A DNA stretch of 64,000 nt from Nocardia cyriacigeorgica (GTDB lineage Bacteria; Actinomycetota; Actinomycetes; Mycobacteriales; Mycobacteriaceae): the NCBI RefSeq assembly GCF_005863245.1, contig NZ_VBUT01000006.1, forward strand, positions 434,001-498,000, in the 5' to 3' direction. The position numbers were made by a program, and so were the translations under genes. Position 1 is the stretch's first letter. Each line of letters starts with the position of its first letter. Below are positions 17,841-27,946 of the stretch, piece after piece. The notes under the pieces were generated by a model. The model saw nothing but the letters and a program-made list of their open reading frames with translations, did no database searches and was not told the DNA's origin.

Positions 17841-18091
17841 CGCGCTCCGTCCTGTCCGCACGACGCCGCCGGCCGGCGCCGTATCGACGATTATCACAAG
17901 CGCGCCGAAGTAAATGTTTCCGGCGTGTTACGCGGGGTGGGAATTTCCGGCGCTCGATTTCTCACAGGAGATTCGACAAACGTAGGCGGCCCGTCATATC
18001 CGCTCAGTACGTTGTGCCGACGTGAGCATTTCCGGTTGCGCCCGCGATCGCTGCTCGCCGCCGAATATCCGATGCCCGTATGGAGCCGCAG
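17841..18091. promoter_or_regulatory. Divergent promoter region with repeated ATTTCCGG-like elements
   Basis: A 251-base gap between the divergent permease-IclR and eat-eutBC operons. The element TTTCCGG occurs three times: 17917-17923, 17944-17950 and 18029-18035. The first two extend to TTTCCGGCG and are 27 bases apart. These are possible activator or IclR sites, but the element is short and I cannot exclude chance. I see no cobalamin riboswitch although EutBC needs adenosylcobalamin. Confidence 0.35.
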
Positions 18092-19531
18092 ATGTCTGTT
18101 CTCGACGCCGACAAATCCCGGAATCAGGGAAGTGAATCGCATGCAGAATCCAGCGATTACCTGGCCAGACGCCAGCTGAAGCGAGGCAGCGCCGGCTGGC
18201 TGCTGCTGGCCGGGCTCGGTGTGAGTTATGTGATCTCCGGCGACTATTCCGGCTGGAACTTCGGCCTGGAACAAGGCGGTTTCGGCGGCCTGGCCATCGC
18301 CGCGGTGATCATCGCCGCCATGTATCTGGCGATGGTGCTCGGAATGGCCGAGATGAGTTCGGCGCTGCCCGCCGCGGGCGGTGGATATACCTTCGCCCGG
18401 CGCGCGCTCGGCCCCTGGGGCGGATTCGCCACCGGCACCGCCATTCTCATCGAATACGCCATCGCACCGGCCGCGATCGCCACCTTCATCGGCGCCTACG
18501 TCGAGTCGCTCGGATTGTTCGGCATCCAGGACGGCTGGTGGGTGTATCTGGCCGTCTACGCGGTATTCATCGGCATCCACCTCAGCGGTGTCGGTGAGGC
18601 GCTGAAGGTGATGTTCGTGATCACCGCCATCGCACTGGTCGGCTTGGTCGTGTTCGTCGTCGCCGCGATCGGGCACTTCGATGTGGCCAACCTGACGAAC
18701 ATCCCGGTGAGCGACGCCGCGGGCGCCTCCAGCGTGCTACCCCACGGTTACATCGGCATCTGGGCGGCGATCCCGTTCGCGATCTGGTTCTTCCTCGCCG
18801 TGGAGGGGGTGCCGCTGGCGGCGGAGGAGACGAAGGATCCCGAGCGCAACGTCCCGCGCGGCATCGTGGCGGCCATGGGTGTGCTGCTGGTGACCTGCGC
18901 GCTCGTGCTGGTGCTCACCACCGGCGCCGGCGGTGCCGAGGCCATGCAGTCCTCGGGCAACCCGCTGGTCGAGGCGCTCGGTGACAGCGGGGCGGCCAAG
19001 ATCGTCAACTACATCGGCCTGGCCGGACTGATCGCCAGCTTCTTCTCCATCATCTACGCCTACTCCCGCCAGCTGTTCGCGCTCTCGCGGGCAGGCTATC
19101 TGCCGAAGTCGTTGTCGGTCACCAATTCTCGCAAGGCGCCGGTGCTCGCGCTGATCGTGCCGGGCGTGATCGGCTTCGGGCTCACCTTCACCGGCCAGGG
19201 CGCCATGCTGCTGAATATGGCCGTGTTCGGCGCCGCGGTCAGCTATGTGTTGATGATGACCAGCCACATCGTGCTGCGCCGCCGTGAGCCGGGGATGGCG
19301 CGGCCCTACCGCACGCCCGGTGGCATCGTCACCACCGGCTTCGCCTTGGTCGTCGCCGCGTTCGCGGTGGTCGCGACCTTCCTGGTGGACACCAAGGCCG
19401 CGCTGTGCTGCCTGGCGGTGTTCGCCGCGTTCCTGGCCTACTTCGGTCTCTACAGCCGCCACCGGCTGGTCGCGAACTCGCCCGATGAGGAGTTCGCGGT
19501 GCTGGCCCGCGCGGAGGAGGAACTCGAATGA
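18092..19531 (+). CDS. eat: Ethanolamine permease
   Basis: A 479-residue APC-family transporter with about twelve membrane helices. The start AGLGVSYVISGDYSGWNFGL, then AEMSSALPAAGGGYTFARRALG, EGVPLAAEETKDPERNVPRG and YAYSRQLFALSRAGYLPKSL follow the pattern of ethanolamine permeases (quoted in part). It brings ethanolamine into the cytosol. The stop overlaps the eutB start (ATGA), so transport and breakdown are coupled. ATG 18092 follows GGAG by 6 bases; ATG 18080 would add four residues. Confidence 0.9.
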   Translation: MSVLDADKSRNQGSESHAESSDYLARRQLKRGSAGWLLLAGLGVSYVISGDYSGWNFGLEQGGFGGLAIAAVIIAAMYLAMVLGMAEMSSALPAAGGGYTFARRALGPWGGFATGTAILIEYAIAPAAIATFIGAYVESLGLFGIQDGWWVYLAVYAVFIGIHLSGVGEALKVMFVITAIALVGLVVFVVAAIGHFDVANLTNIPVSDAAGASSVLPHGYIGIWAAIPFAIWFFLAVEGVPLAAEETKDPERNVPRGIVAAMGVLLVTCALVLVLTTGAGGAEAMQSSGNPLVEALGDSGAAKIVNYIGLAGLIASFFSIIYAYSRQLFALSRAGYLPKSLSVTNSRKAPVLALIVPGVIGFGLTFTGQGAMLLNMAVFGAAVSYVLMMTSHIVLRRREPGMARPYRTPGGIVTTGFALVVAAFAVVATFLVDTKAALCCLAVFAAFLAYFGLYSRHRLVANSPDEEFAVLARAEEELE

Positions 19532-20934
19532 CCTACCACCAGAGCGTTTCCGGCCGGAATTTCAGTTTCGGTTCGCTGGTGGAAGTGCTGGCCAAGGCCA
19601 CGCCGCTGCGCTCGGGTGATCAGCTCGCCGGCTGCGCGGCCGAGTCCGACGCCGAACGCGCCGCGGCCTGCTGGGTGCTGGCCGATCTGCCGCTGACCAC
19701 GTTTCTCGACGAGCAGGTGGTGCCGTACGAAACCGACGAGGTGACCCGGCTGATCGTCGACGGCCACGACCGGGCGGCCTTCGCGCCGATCGCGCATCTC
19801 ACCGTCGGCGGGTTTCGCGACTGGCTGCTGGCCACCGCGGCCACGCCGGACGCCGCGGCGACCCTGTCCGGGATCGCCGCGGGCCTGACACCGGAAATGG
19901 TGGCGGCGGTGTCGAAGCTCATGCGCAACCAGGACCTGATCGCCGTCGCCAAGGCGATCACGGTGACCTCGGCCTTCCGCACCACGATCGGTCTGCCCGG
20001 CCGGATCTCCACGCGCCTGCAACCCAATCATCCCACCGACGATCCGCGCGGGATCGCCGCCGCCACCCTCGACGGGCTGCTGATGGGCTGCGGTGACGCC
20101 GTCATCGGCATCAACCCGGCGACCGATTCACCCAGGGCCACAGCGGATCTGCTGCATCTACTGGATGACGTGCGCACCCGTTTCGACATCCCGATGCAGT
20201 CCTGCGTGCTCTCCCACGTAACCACGACGATGGAACTCATCGACAAGAACGTCCCCGTCGACCTGGTGTTCCAGTCCATCGCGGGCACCGAGGGCGCCAA
20301 CGCGAGCTTCGGCGTCACCCTGCCCATGCTGGCCGAGGCCAACGAGGCGGCGCGCTCGCTGGGGCGGGGGACGGTCGGCGACAACGTGATGTACCTGGAA
20401 ACCGGGCAGGGATCGGCGCTGTCGGCCGGAGCGCATCTGGGCACCGGCGGCCATCCGGTCGATCAGCAGACCCTGGAGGCGCGCGCCTACGCGGTGGCGC
20501 GCGTACTCGACCCGCTGCTGGTGAACACCGTCGTCGGTTTCATCGGTCCGGAATACCTCTACGACGGCAAGCAGATCATCCGCGCCGGCCTCGAAGATCA
20601 CTTCTGCGGCAAACTGCTCGGGCTGCCGATGGGCGTGGACGTCTGCTATACCAATCACGCCGAGGCCGACCAGGACGATATGGACACCTTGCTCACGCTG
20701 CTCGGTGTGGCGGGGGCGGCGTTCGTGATCGCGGTGCCCGGCGCCGACGACGTCATGCTCGGCTACCAGAGCCTGTCGTTTCACGACGCGCTGTATGTGC
20801 GTCAGGTGCTCGGGCTGCGGGCCGCCCCCGAGTTCGAGACCTGGCTGCGCGGGCTCGGGATGGCCGACGAATCGGGGCGCATCCTGCCGGTGGACGCGGC
20901 CACGTCACCGCTACTCGCCCTCACCGCCCGCTGA
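19528..20934 (+). CDS. eutB: Ethanolamine ammonia-lyase large subunit
   Basis: A 468-residue catalytic subunit of adenosylcobalamin-dependent ethanolamine ammonia-lyase, which splits ethanolamine into acetaldehyde and ammonia. Family signatures are LMRNQDLIAVAKAITV near 131-146, LPGRISTRLQPNHPTDDPRG, GDAVIGINPATDSP near 190, FQSIAGTEGANASFGVTLPM, YLETGQGSALSAGAHLG near 291 and VCYTNHAEADQDDMD near 372 (quoted in parts). Length is as expected. It is translated in an overlap with the permease gene and followed 15 bases later by eutC. No eutA reactivase or carboxysome-like shell genes are seen, so this is a minimal cytosolic ethanolamine route. Confidence 0.96.
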   Translation: MTYHQSVSGRNFSFGSLVEVLAKATPLRSGDQLAGCAAESDAERAAACWVLADLPLTTFLDEQVVPYETDEVTRLIVDGHDRAAFAPIAHLTVGGFRDWLLATAATPDAAATLSGIAAGLTPEMVAAVSKLMRNQDLIAVAKAITVTSAFRTTIGLPGRISTRLQPNHPTDDPRGIAAATLDGLLMGCGDAVIGINPATDSPRATADLLHLLDDVRTRFDIPMQSCVLSHVTTTMELIDKNVPVDLVFQSIAGTEGANASFGVTLPMLAEANEAARSLGRGTVGDNVMYLETGQGSALSAGAHLGTGGHPVDQQTLEARAYAVARVLDPLLVNTVVGFIGPEYLYDGKQIIRAGLEDHFCGKLLGLPMGVDVCYTNHAEADQDDMDTLLTLLGVAGAAFVIAVPGADDVMLGYQSLSFHDALYVRQVLGLRAAPEFETWLRGLGMADESGRILPVDAATSPLLALTAR

Positions 20935-20949
20935 CCAGGAGGATCTCTC

Positions 20950-21726
20950 GTGGACATCGACAACGCCGCCGATTCCCCGCACGACGTGTGGGCGCCGTTG
21001 CGCCGCACCACCCAGGCCAGGATCGGGCTCGGCCGCGCCGGCGACGCGCTGCCGACCCAGCGGGTGCTGGAATTCCGTGCCGCGCACGCCGCCGCCCGTG
21101 ACGCCGTGCACCTGCCGTTCGACGCCGCCGGATTCGCCGAGCGGATCGCGGGCCTCGGCCTCGGCACCCCGGCCGTCGTGCGTAGCAAGGCGAGCGACCG
21201 CGGCGAGTACCTGCGCCGCCCCGATCTCGGCCGCACCCCCGCCGACCTGTCGCCGCTGTCGCACACCGGTGCCGATATCGGCATCGTGCTGGCCGACGGC
21301 CTGTCCCCGCGCGCCCTCGACGCACACGGCCCAGGCCTGCTGGAAGCGCTGGTCGAGCAGCTGCGCCCGCACTACAGCCTGGCTCCGCCGGTGCTGGCCG
21401 TGCAGGCCCGCGTCGCGCTGGGCGACCACATCGGCGCCGCCCTCGGCGTGCGCACCCTGATCATGCTCATCGGTGAACGCCCCGGCCTCTCGGTCGCCGA
21501 CAGCCTCGGCATCTACCTCACCCACCTGCCCACGCCCGGCCGCACCGACGCCGACCGCAACTGCGTCTCCAACATCCACCCGCCCGAAGGACTCGGCTAC
21601 CGCCGCGCCGCGACCATCACCGCGGGCCTGGTCGCGGGCGCCCGCGCCCTCGGCCGCTCCGGCGTCGCGCTCAAGGACACCTCAGGTGAGGCGTTGTCGG
21701 GGACGGAATCGCTGGTGTTGGAATAG
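20950..21726 (+). CDS. eutC: Ethanolamine ammonia-lyase small subunit
   Basis: A 258-residue small subunit that binds the cobalamin cofactor together with EutB. Signatures are TQARIGLGRAGDALPTQ near 20-36, FRAAHAAARDAVH, GLSPRALDAHGP, VALGDHIGAALG near 156, LIGERPGLSVADSLGIYLTH near 175 and DADRNCVSNIHPPEGL near 203 (quoted in part). AGGAGG 5-10 bases before GTG 20950 sets the start. It is the last gene of the operon. The 195 bases after it (21727-21921), up to the convergent MarR end, contain nothing I can identify. Confidence 0.96.
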   Translation: MDIDNAADSPHDVWAPLRRTTQARIGLGRAGDALPTQRVLEFRAAHAAARDAVHLPFDAAGFAERIAGLGLGTPAVVRSKASDRGEYLRRPDLGRTPADLSPLSHTGADIGIVLADGLSPRALDAHGPGLLEALVEQLRPHYSLAPPVLAVQARVALGDHIGAALGVRTLIMLIGERPGLSVADSLGIYLTHLPTPGRTDADRNCVSNIHPPEGLGYRRAATITAGLVAGARALGRSGVALKDTSGEALSGTESLVLE

Positions 21727-21921
21727 TTGTCGGTCCACGAATTGACGCTCGAGTCGATGCCGAGGCACAACAACCGACCGGCGGCATGATCAGTCTGCCC
21801 ATGATCGCGTGGTCGAGGAGCTCGATGCGAACGCGCTGGGAGTGCTGCCCTGACCAATTCCGTCGGACGCGGCGCACGACGCCAAATTGTCGGACCGCGA
21901 GCGGAGGAGCGCGCGCCTGGA

Positions 21922-22350
21922 TTAGGCTCGCTGTCTCCGCCCGGCATCGCCGATGACCAGGAGGTTGTCTTCGTTCTCGATGGTCCAGTCCTGTTCGGCG
22001 GCCTGGATCACGGGATTGAGCTTCCGATACAGCTCGGTCCCGCGTTTGCTGAGGTGCAGGCGGACGCGCCGACGGTCGGCCGCGTCGACCTCACGGAAGA
22101 CCAGCGCCCTCGACACCAAGCGGTCGGTGACGCGCGAAAGCGTGGGCGCGGAGATGTGGGTTCTGGCGCGCAATTCGGTCATCGTGAGTTCGGGTGCGGT
22201 CGCCAATGTGGCGATGACCAGCCAGTCATCGATGCCGAGGCCGGTGTCGGAGAGGTGGCCTTCGATGGCGGCGGTCAGCTCGCGGGCGGTGGTGAGGAGC
22301 AGCCTGGTCAGCGAACGATCGCTGCCGGACGTTGCGACGTTGTGCTCCAT
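21922..22350 (-). CDS. MarR family regulator, probable amidase-operon repressor
   Basis: A 142-residue MarR protein. Winged-helix motifs are LTMTELRARTHISAPTLSRV at about 62-81 and the wing FREVDAADRRRVRLHLSKRG with the conserved DRR. An open extension upstream of ATG 22350 is not MarR-like and crosses the operator. It diverges from amiC, and the intergenic region carries TTTCA-N2-TGAAA. The same element lies at the amiS start 4 kb away, so this protein is the best candidate to repress both its own gene and amiS-amiE-amiB. The effector may be a short amide, perhaps relayed by AmiC; this is inferred. Confidence 0.85.
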   Translation of the reverse strand: MEHNVATSGSDRSLTRLLLTTARELTAAIEGHLSDTGLGIDDWLVIATLATAPELTMTELRARTHISAPTLSRVTDRLVSRALVFREVDAADRRRVRLHLSKRGTELYRKLNPVIQAAEQDWTIENEDNLLVIGDAGRRQRA

Positions 22351-22395
22351 CGAATCCTCTCGAACCGTTGCGGGCGGGTCGATCGACCTGAATAC

Positions 22396-22415
22396 TTTCA
22401 CCTGAAATGATATCA
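22396..22415. promoter_or_regulatory. TTTCA-N2-TGAAA operator between marR and amiC
   Basis: TTTCACCTGAAA at 22396-22407 is directly followed by the palindrome TGATATCA (22408-22415). The 20-base block differs at only three positions from the block at 26376-26395 in the amiS promoter. It is positioned to act on both divergent promoters. Confidence 0.75.
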
Positions 22416-22459
22416 GCGTCGGTCGTGACCTTACGCCTGTCGGCCCGCCGGAGTAGTCG

Positions 22460-23533
22460 ATGAACGGCAATCCGGTGCTCAGGCGTGCCCGCGCCGATGT
22501 CTGGCGGCTGGCCCTGGTGATTCCCTTACAAGGCCCCGCGGGGTTGTTCGGTGCTTCCTGTGAGGCGGTCGGCGAACTGCTCGCCCATGATCTGAACGTG
22601 GTCGGAGGCGTACTCGGCCGCGAGGTGGTGCTCGAGATCGTCGACGGTGGTGCGCCGCCGGCGCGGGTCGCGGCGGAGGTCGCCCGGCTGGCCGATGCCG
22701 GCCAGATCGATGCGGTGAGCGGATGGCACATTTCATCGGTGCGCAATGCGCTGGCTCCGGTGCTGGCCGGGCGGATTCCCTATGCGTACAGCTCACTGTA
22801 TGAGGGCGGGGAGAACCGGCCGGGCGTGTACTGCTGTGGTGAGACGCCGCGTCAGCAGATCGCGCCGGCGCTGCGGTGGTTGCGTGACAATACCGGGACA
22901 CGCAAGTGGTTCGTCGTCGGCGACGATTATGTGTGGCCGAAGCAATCGCTGAGTGCGGTCCGGCGATTCGCGGGCGAACTCGGGCTGGATCTCGTCGGAG
23001 GCGCGTTCGTGAAGCTCGGCGGCGGCAATATGCGCACCGTGGTCGAGCGGGTCGCGCGTTCGGGCTGTGAGTCGGTGCTCATGCTGCTGGTCGGTCAGGA
23101 CGCTGTGCAATTCAATCGAGCGTTCGCGCGACGTGGACTCCAGGACTCGATTCTGCGGTTCAGTCCGCTGATGGACGAGAACATGCTGCTGGCCAGTGGC
23201 GCGGACGCGACTCGCGGACTTGTGGTGGCCTCTGGGTACTTTCGTTCACTGACCGACGGCAATGCGATGGAATTGGTGCGCGGATACACCGGATTGCACG
23301 GTCCGGTCGCTCCCGCCATCGGTGCGGCCGCCGAATCCTGTTATGAGGGAGGGCAATTGCTGGCCGCGATGGCCCGGCGGGCGGGACGGCTCGACGACCT
23401 GGGGGCCGTACCGCACGGAATCGCCTACGAGGGTCCGCGGGGGACGGTCGAGTTCCTCGGGAACGAGGCCCGTCAGCGCATACACCTGGCAGTGGCGAAC
23501 GGATTCGATTTCGACATCGTGACCTGCCTCTGA
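22460..23533 (+). CDS. amiC: AmiC-like amide sensor (type I periplasmic-binding fold, cytosolic)
   Basis: A 357-residue protein related to AmiC/UrtA-type binding proteins (Peripla_BP family). Features are PLQGPAGLFGASCEAVGEL near 22-40, the VGGVLGREVVLEIVDGG strand, DAVSGWHISSVRNALAPVL, PYAYSSLYEGGE near 107, YVWPKQSLSAVRRF near 154, and the C-terminal SCYEGGQLLAAMARRAG helix (quoted in parts). No signal peptide precedes the domain, so it works inside the cell as a sensor like Pseudomonas AmiC rather than as a transporter component. No amiR antiterminator is found nearby. It therefore probably signals through the MarR protein or another route. ATG 22460 begins the basic lead-in. Confidence 0.85.
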   Translation: MNGNPVLRRARADVWRLALVIPLQGPAGLFGASCEAVGELLAHDLNVVGGVLGREVVLEIVDGGAPPARVAAEVARLADAGQIDAVSGWHISSVRNALAPVLAGRIPYAYSSLYEGGENRPGVYCCGETPRQQIAPALRWLRDNTGTRKWFVVGDDYVWPKQSLSAVRRFAGELGLDLVGGAFVKLGGGNMRTVVERVARSGCESVLMLLVGQDAVQFNRAFARRGLQDSILRFSPLMDENMLLASGADATRGLVVASGYFRSLTDGNAMELVRGYTGLHGPVAPAIGAAAESCYEGGQLLAAMARRAGRLDDLGAVPHGIAYEGPRGTVEFLGNEARQRIHLAVANGFDFDIVTCL

Positions 23534-23572
23534 TCGGCGTGCCTCGACCACTCGGAGCAGGGCACGCCGATC
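23532..23572. terminator. Bidirectional terminator hairpin between amiC and amiB
   Basis: Perfect 12-bp inverted repeat GATCGGCGTGCC / GGCACGCCGATC with a 17-base loop. It starts inside the amiC stop codon and ends 26 bases before the end of convergent amiB, so it can serve both transcripts. Confidence 0.75.
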
Positions 23573-23597
23573 CGCGGACGGTGGGTAGCGCCGCGGC

Positions 23598-24647
23598 TCA
23601 GTCGACCTCGTCGATGCGATAGACCAGAACGCGGCCATCGCGAACGGCCGCCGACAAGCTCAGCGGTTCGCCGCCCGTGCGATGGTGCACGATCGCATCG
23701 GCGATCGGGGCAGCGACCCGGCATCGTATCCGCCGCCGCATGGATCGAGCACCGTACTGGGCATCGAACCCTTCCACGGCCAGCATGTCGATCACCGAAT
23801 CCGCACAGGTGAGATGCACGCCGCGGCGCCGGAGCCGGGCGGCGAGCCGGTCGATTTCCAGCCGCGCGATGCGACGCGCGGTGTCGGCGGTGATCGGATT
23901 CAACACGACGATTTCGTCGATCCGGTTGAAGAACTCCGGATCGAGGAACCGCTGCACCGCCTCGAGTGTGAGCTCTCGCTGCCGCGCGCCGTTATCGGCG
24001 CGCACACGCGGCATCGAAGGCCACCATCGGCGGGTCCGCCGGTGCACCCACTGAGCGGAGCCGAGATTCGAGGTCATGAAGACATAGCAATTGCGAAAGG
24101 AGATGCGTTCCTTGCCGTTCGCCAAGCGCAGCTCCCCGGTGTCGAGCACATGCAGCAGCGCCCGCAGCACGGTGACGTCGGCCTTCTCGATCTCATCGAA
24201 CAGCACGATGCCCGGCCGATAGGTCGTGCCTTCGACAGTGTCCCGGTCGAACAGGGTCAGCGACTCCTTGCTGCCGGCATATCCGGGCGGTGCGCCGCTG
24301 AACGACGCGGCGTAGTGCTCCTGCGCCAACGCATTCATATCGACTCGGCACAAATCGTCCGGGCCGCTGCGCAATTCGGCGGCCAGCCGGCGGACCAGTT
24401 CGGTTTTGCCGACACCGGTGGGGCCCGCGAGCAGCACGCTGGCCAACGGGCCGTGCGGGTCCGTGGCGCCGACGTGCGCGAGGGTTACCGCGCGCACGAC
24501 GGCGTCGATGGCGTCGGCTTGTCCGAGGACGGATTCGCCGAGTCGAGCTGCCAGCGCCTGCCGATCGAATCCGGTGGCCGAATCGGGGCGCGCCGGCGCG
24601 GCGGGCGCCCGGTTCTGGTCCTGGAGCATGTCGGTCAGGAACGGCAT
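23598..24647 (-). CDS. amiB: AmiB-like AAA+ ATPase (ClpB C-terminal type)
   Basis: A 349-residue AAA+ protein. Walker A is GPTGVGKT at 75-82 and Walker B is IVLFDE at 147-152. Pore-loop-like GAPPGYAGSKES at 118-129 and sensor FMTSNLGSAQW follow, then a ClpB D2-small-domain end (RFLDPEFFNRIDEIVVLNP, AVEGFDAQYGARSMRRRI, quoted in part). It lacks the ClpB N-terminal domain and first ATPase. Pseudomonas amidase operons carry the same kind of protein (AmiB), thought to work with the AmiS transporter. AGGAGG sits 5 bases before ATG 24647. Only 8 bases separate it from amiE, so it is the third gene of amiS-amiE-amiB. Confidence 0.87.
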   Translation of the reverse strand: MPFLTDMLQDQNRAPAAPARPDSATGFDRQALAARLGESVLGQADAIDAVVRAVTLAHVGATDPHGPLASVLLAGPTGVGKTELVRRLAAELRSGPDDLCRVDMNALAQEHYAASFSGAPPGYAGSKESLTLFDRDTVEGTTYRPGIVLFDEIEKADVTVLRALLHVLDTGELRLANGKERISFRNCYVFMTSNLGSAQWVHRRTRRWWPSMPRVRADNGARQRELTLEAVQRFLDPEFFNRIDEIVVLNPITADTARRIARLEIDRLAARLRRRGVHLTCADSVIDMLAVEGFDAQYGARSMRRRIRCRVAAPIADAIVHHRTGGEPLSLSAAVRDGRVLVYRIDEVD

Positions 24648-24655
24648 GGTGCCTC

Positions 24656-25693
24656 CTAGGCCTCGGTGGTCTGCTCGACGGGTAGCGCACCGACCCGGCA
24701 CTCGGCGACCCCGACGGTGTCGCGGGTCAACTCCTCGACCTGTTGCTGGGCCTTGACCGCATCGGTCACCCACAGCTTGTAGAACTCGAAGGGGCAGTCG
24801 GCGACCCCGCGATCGCCGTCGCCGGCGGCGTGCACACCGGAGTAGCCGCGGTGCAACAGTTTGAACAGGTGGTTCTGGGATTGGTCGTTCGCCCGCGCGT
24901 CGCGAATCGCGGCGACCGACAGCTGGGCGTACTGGATTCCGTATTCCTCCTCACCGGTTTCGCCGAGGGTGCGCCCATCGAACCCGATGATCGCCGAATG
25001 CCCGAAGTAGGAGTACACGCCGTCGAACCCGGCGGCATTCGCCACGGCGACATAGCAATTGTTGGCCCAGGCCATGGCTTTGGCCATGAGCACCTGCTGA
25101 TCTTTGGCCGGATACATGTAGCCCTGGCAGCGCACGATCAACTCCGCGCCCTTCATCGCGCAGTCGCGCCAGATCTCCGGATAGTTGCCGTCATCGCAGA
25201 TGATCAGCGACACCTTCAGGCCTTTGGGCCCCTCGGTGACATAGGTGGTGTCGCCCGGATACCACCCCTCGATCGGGCACCACGGCAGGATCTTTCGATA
25301 CTTCTGCACGATCTCGCCGCGATCGTTGATCAGGACCAGCGTGTTGTAGGGCGGCTTGTTCGGGTGATCCTCGTGCTGCTCGCCGGTGATCGAGAAGACG
25401 CCCCACACACCGGCCTGCCGGCATGCGGCCGAGAAGATCTCGGTCTCCTCGCCCGGCACGGTCGCGGCGGTCGCGTACATCTCCTGTTCGTCGTACATGA
25501 TTCCCTGGGTCGAGTACTCCGGGAAGATCACCAGATCCATTCCGGGCAAACCGGTTTTCATCCCGACCAGCATCTCCGCGATCTTGCGCGCGTTGGCGAC
25601 GACCTCGGCTTCGGTGTGCAGTCGCGGCATCTTGTAATTGACCACCGCCACCCCGACGGTGTCGGGGCTGGATGAAATATCGCCGTGTCGCAT
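24656..25693 (-). CDS. amiE: Aliphatic amidase
   Basis: A 345-residue nitrilase-superfamily amidase. It hydrolyses short aliphatic amides such as acetamide to acid and ammonia in the cytosol. The catalytic triad falls at the canonical numbers: Glu59 in FPEYSTQG, Lys134 in YRKILPW and Cys166 in [10 protein letters not shown]. The long C-terminal arm (residues 280-345) typical of the hexameric AmiE group is present. AGGAG precedes ATG 25693. It lies 44 bases after the amiS stop and is expected to be induced with it through the operator at 26373. Confidence 0.97.
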
Positions 25694-25737
25694 TCGGTTT
25701 CTCCTTTATCGGACCCGTGTCGGGCGGTTGGTGCGGT

Positions 25738-26358
25738 TCAGGGAGCCGCGGGAACATTCGTGGTCGCGAGGCGGTAGCGGCCGGCGAGCAACCAGGAAGC
25801 GCCGAGCGCCGCGACGACTCCGGCGGCCCAGACCGCCGCCATGCCGGCCGTGGGGTGGTAGTTGCCGGTCAGCGCCAGCAGTGCGGGAACGGTGCACGTC
25901 GGCTGGCTCAGCAGTACGACGGCCCAGCCGGTGAACCGCGTCAGTCCATCCATGCCCAGGCCGAGGACCAGGAAGAACAAGCCCCACAGCACTGCCCAGG
26001 CGATCCAGATGACGCCGAAGACCGGATCCGCCATCCGCCCGAAGGAGATCCAGGCGTAGACGAGGGCCGCGGCGGCGACGAAGGCGGAGAACCAGCCGAT
26101 TCCCTGTGGCTCACATCCGGCGAGAGTGCTGATGCCGACGTAGAGATAGGTGAAACCGAACAGGTACACACCGGACGCGGCCAGGATCGTCGCCGGGTCA
26201 CCGGCCGACTGCGCGAGCATGACCGTCGGCACGACGCACTGCAACGCCCCGACGAACAGATTGAGCAGGGCAGCCGAGCGCGGCGGGACGACCCCGAGCA
26301 GCATGAGCCCGTTGACCAGGAGAACGGCTCCGACGTACAGCAGACCGACATTGGCCAT
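25738..26358 (-). CDS. amiS: AmiS/UreI-family amide channel
   Basis: A 206-residue membrane protein with six or seven hydrophobic helices. The start ANVGLLYVGAVLLVNGLMLLG, GVYLFGFTYLYVGISTL near 72-88, GWFSAFVAAAALVYAW, FGVIWIAWAVLWGLFFLVLG and the C-terminal Gly/Ala helices follow AmiS/UreI (quoted in part). It would let small amides or urea across the membrane, feeding amiE. The start is uncertain: ATG 26358 has GGTGGTGG before it, while ATG 26370 would add four residues and begins three bases from the operator. First gene of amiS-amiE-amiB. Confidence 0.9.
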   Translation of the reverse strand: MANVGLLYVGAVLLVNGLMLLGVVPPRSAALLNLFVGALQCVVPTVMLAQSAGDPATILAASGVYLFGFTYLYVGISTLAGCEPQGIGWFSAFVAAAALVYAWISFGRMADPVFGVIWIAWAVLWGLFFLVLGLGMDGLTRFTGWAVVLLSQPTCTVPALLALTGNYHPTAGMAAVWAAGVVAALGASWLLAGRYRLATTNVPAAP

Positions 26359-26372
26359 GACCACCACCATTG

Positions 26373-26402
26373 ATTTCATATGAAATGATTTCAGATGAAA
26401 AT
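26373..26402 (-). promoter_or_regulatory. Paired TTTCA-N2-TGAAA operators at the amiS start
   Basis: ATTTCATATGAAAT at 26373-26386 is a perfect 14-bp palindrome. TTTCAGATGAAA follows at 26389-26400. The two sites are 15 bases apart and abut the amiS start, so a bound repressor would block initiation. The arrangement repeats the element at 22396 between marR and amiC. Confidence 0.82.
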
Positions 26403-26452
26403 ACGTGTGGTGGGTCACAGAGTCAAGGGGTCCGGGCCGGGCACGTGCAGGG

Positions 26453-27946
26453 TCAGCGGATGACCGGATCCACGGCGATCGGCGGAATGGATTCGACGCA
26501 GGTGGTCGGGCCGGTGGTGCCGGTACGGATGAATCGGTCGACGATCCCGGTGACGCAGCCGCTGGGTTCGAGGTCGGGGACGTGGCCGGTGTTCGGCACG
26601 GAGAGGAATGTGGCGTCGGCGAACCGGGCCGCGACCTGCTCGCCGTGTGCGTCCGGGGTGATGGCGTCGAGGTCGCCCGACAGGACGAGCACCGGGACAT
26701 TCGGCAGCGCACCACTCGGCCGCGCCGGGTGCGCCGCAGTGATGTTGGGCCACCGGATGCACGCGTCGCCGCCGTCGCGCACCGCGGCGTTGAATCCCGC
26801 GAGACTGAACGCGCTGGCGGAGGGTTCGGCGGCGTCGAGTGCTCGCCGGTACTGCCGCTCTCGCTCGGTCACCGTCGCCGCACGGGACCAGACGGTGGGG
26901 TAGTCGTTGCAGGCGACGGTCATGTAGAGGTCGATGTTCTCGGTGGGCGGTGCACCGACCGCGTGTTCGGCGAAATGCCGCAGACCGGTGTCGTCGCCGG
27001 CCGCGGCAGCGTGCAGCGCCGCGGGCAGGCTGCCGAGCGGGGTGGGTGCGCTGGGGTCGGCGCCGACGTTGCTGGTGGCGACCTCGAAGATGAGGGTGGC
27101 GAGTTTGGCCTCGGTGAGCAGCATCGGGTTCGCGCCGCCGATCTCGAGCGGCTGGGCGGCCAATCGCCGGGCGACGGTGCGCAGGTCGGCGACCGCGGTC
27201 GCGCCATCGCAGGCGCCGCTGCGTTCGCAGATGCGGTGCAGGGCCAGCGAGACCGCGTCGGCGTTCGGTCGGTTCAGCAGGTCGAAGTCGGGGAGGAATG
27301 CGCCGGTCAGGACCATGGATTGGACGTGGTCGGGGTGGCGTTCGGCGTAGACGGGCATCAGGAAGGTGCCGTAGGAGATGCCGTAGAGCACCAGCCGGGG
27401 GATGCCGAGCCGTTCGCGCACCGCGTCGATATCGTCGGCGGTCGCGGCCGAGGTGTAGCCGGCCGCGCGGGGGCCGAGCCGCTCACCGCAGCGGGCGACG
27501 ACCTGTCTCTGCTGTTCGCGGGTGCCGAGTTCGAATTCTCGTTCGTCGGCGCCGCAGTCGAGCGGGCTGGACTGGCCGGTGCCGCGCGGATCGATCAGCA
27601 GCAGATCGTGGTCGTCGAGCAGAGCGGAAGCCAGCTGGGTGGCTTGGGCGGCGTGTGCGATGAGCGGGACCCCGGGCCCGCCCGGGTTGGGCGCGACTGT
27701 GCCGACGGCGGGTGCGTCGAGGTTGTTGCGCCGGATCAGCGCGTAGCTCACGTCCACCGAGCCCAGCTGTGGGTCGTCGGCGACCAGAGGCCGCTGCTCG
27801 ATGCCGCATTCGACCTGGTGGCCGGGAACGGTGGGGCACCAATCGGGTGACTGCGCCGCCCGTGTGGCGTCGCATGCGGTAATCAGCGGTACGACGGCCA
27901 GCGCGGCAAGTGCCGCGACGAGCGCGGCCCGCGGGGCTTTCTTCAT
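26453..27946 (-). CDS. Exported lipoprotein alpha/beta hydrolase, S33/TAP family
   Basis: A 497-residue protein. Residues 1-25 are a lipoprotein signal with lipobox LITAC (Cys25). The catalytic domain has NPGGPG at 87-92, LLIDPRGTGQSSPLDC at 116-131, nucleophile Ser191 in GISYGT and a Gly-Asp-Leu-Asp acid site near 435 in LSGDLDAITP. His lies in NTGHVPDLEPSGC near 463, within the TAP-like C-terminal domain. Such proteins are tripeptidyl aminopeptidases or related proline-releasing hydrolases at the cell surface. The open frame continues upstream of ATG 27946 but is not protein-like. Divergent from the response-regulator gene at 28211. Confidence 0.88.
   Translation of the reverse strand: MKKAPRAALVAALAALAVVPLITACDATRAAQSPDWCPTVPGHQVECGIEQRPLVADDPQLGSVDVSYALIRRNNLDAPAVGTVAPNPGGPGVPLIAHAAQATQLASALLDDHDLLLIDPRGTGQSSPLDCGADEREFELGTREQQRQVVARCGERLGPRAAGYTSAATADDIDAVRERLGIPRLVLYGISYGTFLMPVYAERHPDHVQSMVLTGAFLPDFDLLNRPNADAVSLALHRICERSGACDGATAVADLRTVARRLAAQPLEIGGANPMLLTEAKLATLIFEVATSNVGADPSAPTPLGSLPAALHAAAAGDDTGLRHFAEHAVGAPPTENIDLYMTVACNDYPTVWSRAATVTERERQYRRALDAAEPSASAFSLAGFNAAVRDGGDACIRWPNITAAHPARPSGALPNVPVLVLSGDLDAITPDAHGEQVAARFADATFLSVPNTGHVPDLEPSGCVTGIVDRFIRTGTTGPTTCVESIPPIAVDPVIR

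Follow-up and report, generated by a model that had tools for sequence, protein, structure and literature searches.

The amidase locus of Nocardia cyriacigeorgica contained in the 64,000-nucleotide stretch of DNA analysed here (contig NZ_VBUT01000006.1, positions 434,001 to 498,000; the window) appears to be controlled by a pair of proteins, a MarR-family regulator that represses and an amide-loaded, cytosolic AmiC-like protein that relieves the repression. Judged from sequence comparison this whole chain is probable, and one part of it, repression by MarR through palindromic TTTCA-N2-TGAAA sites, is very likely. The genes marR and amiC are divergent, and a minus-strand operon of amiS, amiE and a gene for an AmiB-like AAA ATPase (26358 down to 23598) converges on amiC. 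These genes, the sites and their overlap with a predicted promoter, their conservation and their linkage can be read from the DNA itself.

Operator sites and the promoter of the amidase operon

Three exact copies of TTTCA-N2-TGAAA are present in the window. Operator O1 (TTTCACCTGAAA, 22396-22407) lies in the divergent gap between marR and amiC, where relatives of the locus have sites as well, and is followed 15 bp further on by merely a degenerate half-site, TATCA (22411-22415). Operators O2 (TTTCATATGAAA, 26374-26385) and O3 (TTTCAGATGAAA, or TTTCATCTGAAA in the sense of amiS, 26389-26400) stand before amiS as a tandem pair whose starts are 15 bp apart. Only 0.01 exact copies are expected per 64 kb, as estimated from 100 shuffles, none of which reached three. 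The same three copies are the only ones in the 6,520,205-base assembly, every one of them at the marR/amiC/amiS locus. With up to one mismatch allowed the genome contains 28 sites, of which only the three exact ones belong to this locus, and the two window sites with two mismatches represent no excess over chance (five sites with up to two mismatches in total, 3.0 expected).

The initial annotation had regarded nearly identical 20-base blocks at the two places as shared operators, and the sites do have the look of operators; the genome search for further copies that it had proposed found no exact site elsewhere. Its placement of the blocks needs correction, as the best correspondence is between 22396-22415 and 26374-26393 (17 of 20 bases identical, as counted by eye) and the block before amiS, given as 26376-26395, was off by two positions. 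Sites at both places were correctly recognized, and the second full palindrome, which overlaps the end of the amiS block, had gone unmentioned.

The tandem pair coincides with the predicted promoter of the amiS-amiE-amiB operon, TTGACT-17-TATTTT on the minus strand (26398..26426; -35 at 26426-26421, -10 at 26403-26398), for which one match was found as compared to 0.1 expected. The last three T of the -10 element are at the same time the first TTT of O3.

Conservation of the operator in relatives

Both the site and its position in the promoter recur in relatives. A first set of 60 regions around AmiC relatives, picked from match lists, totals 890,236 bases and has 28 exact sites; no module gene contains any of them, and all mapped to the marR/amiC gap or upstream of amidase or acetamidase genes. 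A second, partly overlapping set of 85 loci, comprising 80 named loci, the best of at least 588 relatives, and five plasmid loci from 91 records, spans 926,474 bases with 39 exact sites, again with none inside module genes. Target promoters provide 82 sites that deviate by one base or not at all and differ in upstream context (duplicates removed). In 44 of them TTGAC precedes the site at a distance of 26-27 bp, each time with TA[N] immediately in front of the site. A distance of 41-42 bp, which the second member of a tandem should show, accounts for 20 counts among the 82, and the remaining sites have TTGAC at other distances or none within 60 bp. The composite pattern TTGAC-(17-19)-TA.TTTC gave 63 matches in 170 unique regions, Mycobacterium-genus regions included; 62 of these lie within 500 bp before amiS (49), amiE (12) or FmdA (1), and in 49 of the 62 a second site with at most three mismatches follows 15 bp on. 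With the site placed over the -10 element, the relatives show the geometry of a repressor covering this element.

A site with at most one mismatch also occurs in 44 of 120 divergent marR/amiC gaps, as compared to 0.08% of 2400 shuffled gaps. The recognition-helix stretch of the window MarR, SAPTLSRVTDRL, is of the class that accompanies TTTCANNTGAAA sites. At up to two mismatches a gap site is found in 75 of 100 divergent modules whose MarR helix is of the PTL/ASL class, in two of 20 modules with other helix classes and in about 2% of shuffled gaps. Since the modules are related, they do not amount to 120 independent observations.

Genomic linkage of MarR and AmiC

Why would AmiC work through MarR rather than through another partner? 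Our main reason is that the pair stays constant while the target enzyme changes. In 130 of 138 unique modules (L119 and L120, with two AmiC genes and one MarR each, are counted twice) AmiC has a MarR gene no more than 700 bp away, which in 120 of them is divergent from it. Within 4.5 kb of the 130 pairs we find amiE in 74 cases, FmdA in 32, both in three, nitrile hydratase in one (a lower bound, as it was sought only in the 85-locus second set) and none of these in 20. Mycobacterium-genus regions chosen from a list of matches, which stand outside the 138, have MarR near AmiC in 27 of 29 cases, as read from the map, and in 11 of the 27 (L246-L249, L251, L253-L255, L257-L259) nthB-nthA-like genes lie upstream of co-directional marR-amiC. 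On this linkage AmiC is the likely partner of MarR, one of the two possibilities that the initial annotation had named for it.

Some modules deserve mention in their own right. The nthA-like (54-58% identity) and nthB-like (30-33%) genes of the 11 loci would encode nitrile hydratase or else a related enzyme, thiocyanate hydrolase for example. In L119 (6067-8696) and L120 (5706-8273) two different AmiC relatives flank a single MarR gene, an arrangement that suggests one repressor with two sensors. The AmiC relatives in L042 (8209-9249) and L043 (7795-8847) have no MarR, amidase or AmiS match in the 16-kb region and may be orphan sensors or act with other partners. On the Rhodococcus plasmids L129, L131 and L132, genes annotated as tubulin-like domain proteins adjoin the MarR-AmiC-amidase module.

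Proposed mechanism and alternatives

We suggest that in the absence of amide MarR dimers would sit on the two tandem operators, covering the -10 and the start of the amiS-amiE-amiB promoter and keeping the amidase operon off, and that by binding the single marR/amiC site they would limit their own synthesis. Amide would enter the cell, probably via AmiS, and be bound by cytosolic AmiC. Amide-loaded AmiC would then act as an anti-repressor that removes MarR from the DNA or weakens its hold there, and the operon would be transcribed. What we infer is that MarR is the binder, that AmiC binds amides and signals to MarR, and which sign the action of AmiC has; the positive sign is taken from Mycobacterium smegmatis, as given in a passage of a review (PMC12719403). 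AmiC is taken as cytosolic because its N-terminus, read by eye in an alignment, has no evident signal peptide. The same reading of the N-terminus, together with the lack of any ABC (ATP-binding cassette) transporter by Pfam among the 18 open reading frames between 13.7 and 34.5 kb, led us to reject AmiC as the binding protein of such a transporter. More generally, there might be a pan-actinomycete two-protein sensor, in which MarR leaves the recognition of the ligand to a cytosolic protein of the periplasmic-binding type that docks on it when loaded, with one pair per pathway (amides, nitriles) and a common tandem operator lodged in the -10 of the target promoter; we would put the chances of this wider scheme at about even.

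Several observations weigh against our interpretation. AmiC lacks a MarR gene within 700 bp in eight of the 138 modules (L042, L043, L048, L055, L123, L124, L150 and L205; L150 has one farther off), and ten MarR-AmiC modules are not divergent. In 36 divergent pairs, of the PTL/ASL as well as of other classes, even the best gap site has three to four mismatches, and the six pairs L097-L102 have no gap site with two mismatches or fewer. No promoter-like match was found when one was sought in the marR/amiC gap of the window. The palindrome is also widespread: one to seven exact copies occur in each of 104 out of 118 genomes of the genus, some at MarR-AmiC modules (e.g. G037 C14, G091 C49) and some on contigs for which no AmiC match was listed (e.g. 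G082 C1). Given the latter, similar sites probably serve further regulators, and the notion of an operator exclusive to MarR-AmiC regulons, true in the genome analysed, does not hold for the genus. As to the sensor, the AmiC-like protein scores as well against urea-binding proteins (7s6f, 1.5e-19) as against AmiC (1pea/1qo0, 1.3e-19) and better against an unassigned receptor (8tg1, 1.1e-28), and we have therefore taken the amide ligand from the neighbouring enzymes. Finally, co-divergence does not single out the MarR-AmiC pair: across 25 modules r is 0.833 for MarR-AmiC, 0.841 for MarR-AmiB and 0.914 for AmiC-AmiB, the MarR-AmiC value exceeding those for MarR-AmiS (0.738) and MarR-AmiE (0.713). 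A first mirror-tree run on 48 modules had given 0.889 for MarR-AmiC, 0.569 for MarR-AmiE and 0.613 for AmiC-AmiE; as proof of contact between MarR and AmiC the approach was dropped, since it proved non-specific once faster-evolving controls were added.

How else might the locus be wired? Proteins of the MarR family are often ligand-binding sensors in their own right, and MarR might directly sense the amide or one of its products (acid, ammonia), in which case AmiC would have another task, such as acting on the AAA ATPase or buffering the amide. The co-divergence of AmiC with the AAA protein, the closest of those given above, speaks for this; however, AmiC stays near MarR also where AAA, AmiS and AmiE are unmatched or where FmdA or nitrile-hydratase-like genes replace them, and we regard direct sensing by MarR as unlikely. 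We are equally doubtful that apo-AmiC is a co-repressor that holds MarR on the DNA, much as free AmiC silences AmiR in Pseudomonas, with amide freeing both. The anatomy of the locus is compatible with either sign of AmiC. The title of Venkatesan 2018 reportedly names AmiC as a positive regulator in M. smegmatis. The passage of the review mentioned above (PMC12719403) describes it likewise, and both speak against a co-repressor; in a passage of another work, which speaks for one, AmiC is a sensor and, together with AmiR, a negative regulator (PMC13209695).

A further alternative would be control of the operon by an AmiR-type antiterminator encoded elsewhere in the genome, with the MarR sites as secondary control. 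The genome encodes three ANTAR proteins (REC-, PAS- and GAF-ANTAR), none of them within the window; the one closest to marR shares its contig at a distance of about 58 kb. One of them, the REC-ANTAR protein, has the domain order of AmiR, but it sits on another contig, and we take it to resemble the widespread PdtaR response regulator; the remaining two come with PAS or GAF. With a transcription start predicted near 26390, the leader before amiS would be about 30 nt long; it is mostly operator and without a terminator, no terminator-like site was found in 26340-26470 before amiS, and 21800-26600 contains no Rfam match. On domain make-up, linkage and the lack of a leader terminator we reject control by AmiR or another ANTAR antiterminator, which we consider highly improbable. 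In agreement with what had been noted initially, AmiR is absent from the locus, no ANTAR protein being encoded in the window, and a MarR regulator takes the place that AmiR has in the Pseudomonas system.

Repression by MarR and its relief by amide-loaded AmiC, the mechanism that we favour, bears on a much-used tool of mycobacterial expression, the M. smegmatis acetamidase promoter, for which the passages at hand leave the step from AmiC to the repressor unexplained. With the clean operator, the promoter layout and the 130 natural variants of MarR-AmiC that the window and its relatives provide, this step becomes directly testable, and further amide-inducible promoters could be gained from them.

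Genes of the locus and its surroundings

The proposed repressor MarR (21922..22350, minus strand) has 142 amino acids and matches PF12802 (2e-13) and PF01047 (9.1e-9). The proposed amide sensor (22460..23533, plus strand) is a 357-residue protein of the periplasmic-binding type (Peripla_BP_6; PF13458, 1.5e-63), whose closest counterpart among the named relatives found is an AmiC of N. cyriacigeorgica with 95% identity. In the operon, AmiS (25738..26358, minus strand, with an alternative in-frame start at 26370) is a transporter of the AmiS/UreI family (PF02293, 1.1e-58), and AmiE (24656..25693, minus strand, 345 amino acids) is an aliphatic amidase that scores 704 bits against NF009802 (cut-off 427) and is the only match to this family genome-wide. 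The last gene (23598..24647, minus strand) encodes an AmiB-like single AAA ATPase of the ClpB/ClpA type with 349 amino acids (PF07724, 2.3e-37; PF10431, 4.5e-16), which matches TIGR03346 at profile positions 559-834, under the family cut-off. Its co-divergence with AmiC is the tightest of all pairs among the five genes tested. The three genes are tightly packed with nothing between them, and the operon hence has no amiD. The domains expected from the first description of marR, amiC, amiE and amiS were all confirmed; the ClpB-like AAA gene had gone unnamed there. On its other side marR is adjoined by genes for an amino-acid-type permease and then for EutB and EutC (ethanolamine ammonia-lyase; 18080-21726). 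EutB/EutC adjoin marR in the two closest relatives too (L038, L039), and there is no match in the G020 region (L040).

Comparison with known amidase systems

In Pseudomonas aeruginosa the genes are ordered amiEBCRS and are controlled by AmiC-AmiR antitermination. Four of these five genes have counterparts in the window, namely AmiE, the AmiB-like AAA protein, AmiC and AmiS, with AmiR as the exception. The Nocardia locus thus differs in having no linked AmiR and no leader terminator that we could find, and instead has MarR with candidate operators over the promoter.

A closer parallel is the acetamidase system of M. smegmatis, whose AmiA reportedly binds between amiA and amiD. According to the passages available, this system comprises five genes, with AmiA acting negatively and AmiC and AmiD positively (PMC12719403), the amiCADSE locus corresponds to MSMEG_5335 to MSMEG_5339 (PMC5974015), amiC, amiA, amiD and amiS are named as a promoter system (PMC11005228, PMC5861769), and titles of cited works call amiA a negative regulator. 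These passages on the M. smegmatis and Pseudomonas systems give no operator sequence and nowhere term AmiA a MarR protein. The comparison was made with two Mycobacterium-genus loci that have the M. smegmatis gene order, L250 and L252; their genus is the one that holds Mycolicibacterium, a placement that draws on genome G375, whose AmiC and the M. senegalense protein share 89% identity. In both loci amiC is divergent from a 142-amino-acid gene, which is followed by a 96-amino-acid gene, amiS and FmdA. The gene at the amiA position matches MarR seeds in both, and on L252 Pfam identifies it as MarR, the 96-residue protein at the amiD place as a zinc ribbon (PF09723) and the enzyme as FmdA_AmdA. 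The amiA-amiD gap of L252 contains TTGAC and the 12-mers TTTCATCTGGAT and TTTCGGGTGAAT, 15 bp apart and each two mismatches from TTTCANNTGAAA, and L250 has a like pair; these sites are consistent with the binding reported for AmiA. Both loci fall outside the composite pattern because TTGAC lies closer there, the first 12-mer following it at only some 9 bp.

The two systems accordingly share a MarR regulator with an AmiC-type sensor encoded divergently from it, AmiS, a presumably inducible amidase and candidate repressor sites, over the -10 in Nocardia and, for L250 and L252, as a degenerate tandem between amiA and amiD. They differ in that the mycobacterial locus has an FmdA-type enzyme and a zinc-ribbon gene at the amiD position (L252), whereas Nocardia has AmiE, the AAA gene and no amiD. 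A similar pairing is found at Rhodococcus nitrile hydratase clusters, where a MarR gene adjoins an AmiC relative beside nthBA on a plasmid of Rhodococcus sp. M8; here the target is different, marR and amiC point towards each other in M8 and in most of the Mycobacterium-genus loci follow one another in tandem, and the sole site found in M8 is one with a single mismatch upstream of marR. Komeda 1996 is said to describe MarR plus AmiC-like genes, nhhC and nhhD, at the nitrile hydratase cluster of R. rhodochrous J1.

The initial annotation had suggested for the locus a different wiring of the ami system. That this wiring is new finds no support, as L250 and L252 contain the same MarR-AmiC pair with a degenerate tandem site and the review assigns AmiA a negative and AmiC a positive role (PMC12719403). 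For these reasons the MarR-AmiC wiring is most likely a known one, found here in a branch in which AmiE replaces FmdA. The literature searched, which did not cover the primary M. smegmatis papers, contains no description of the operator sequence, and as far as this search reached it is the operator and its breadth that are new here.

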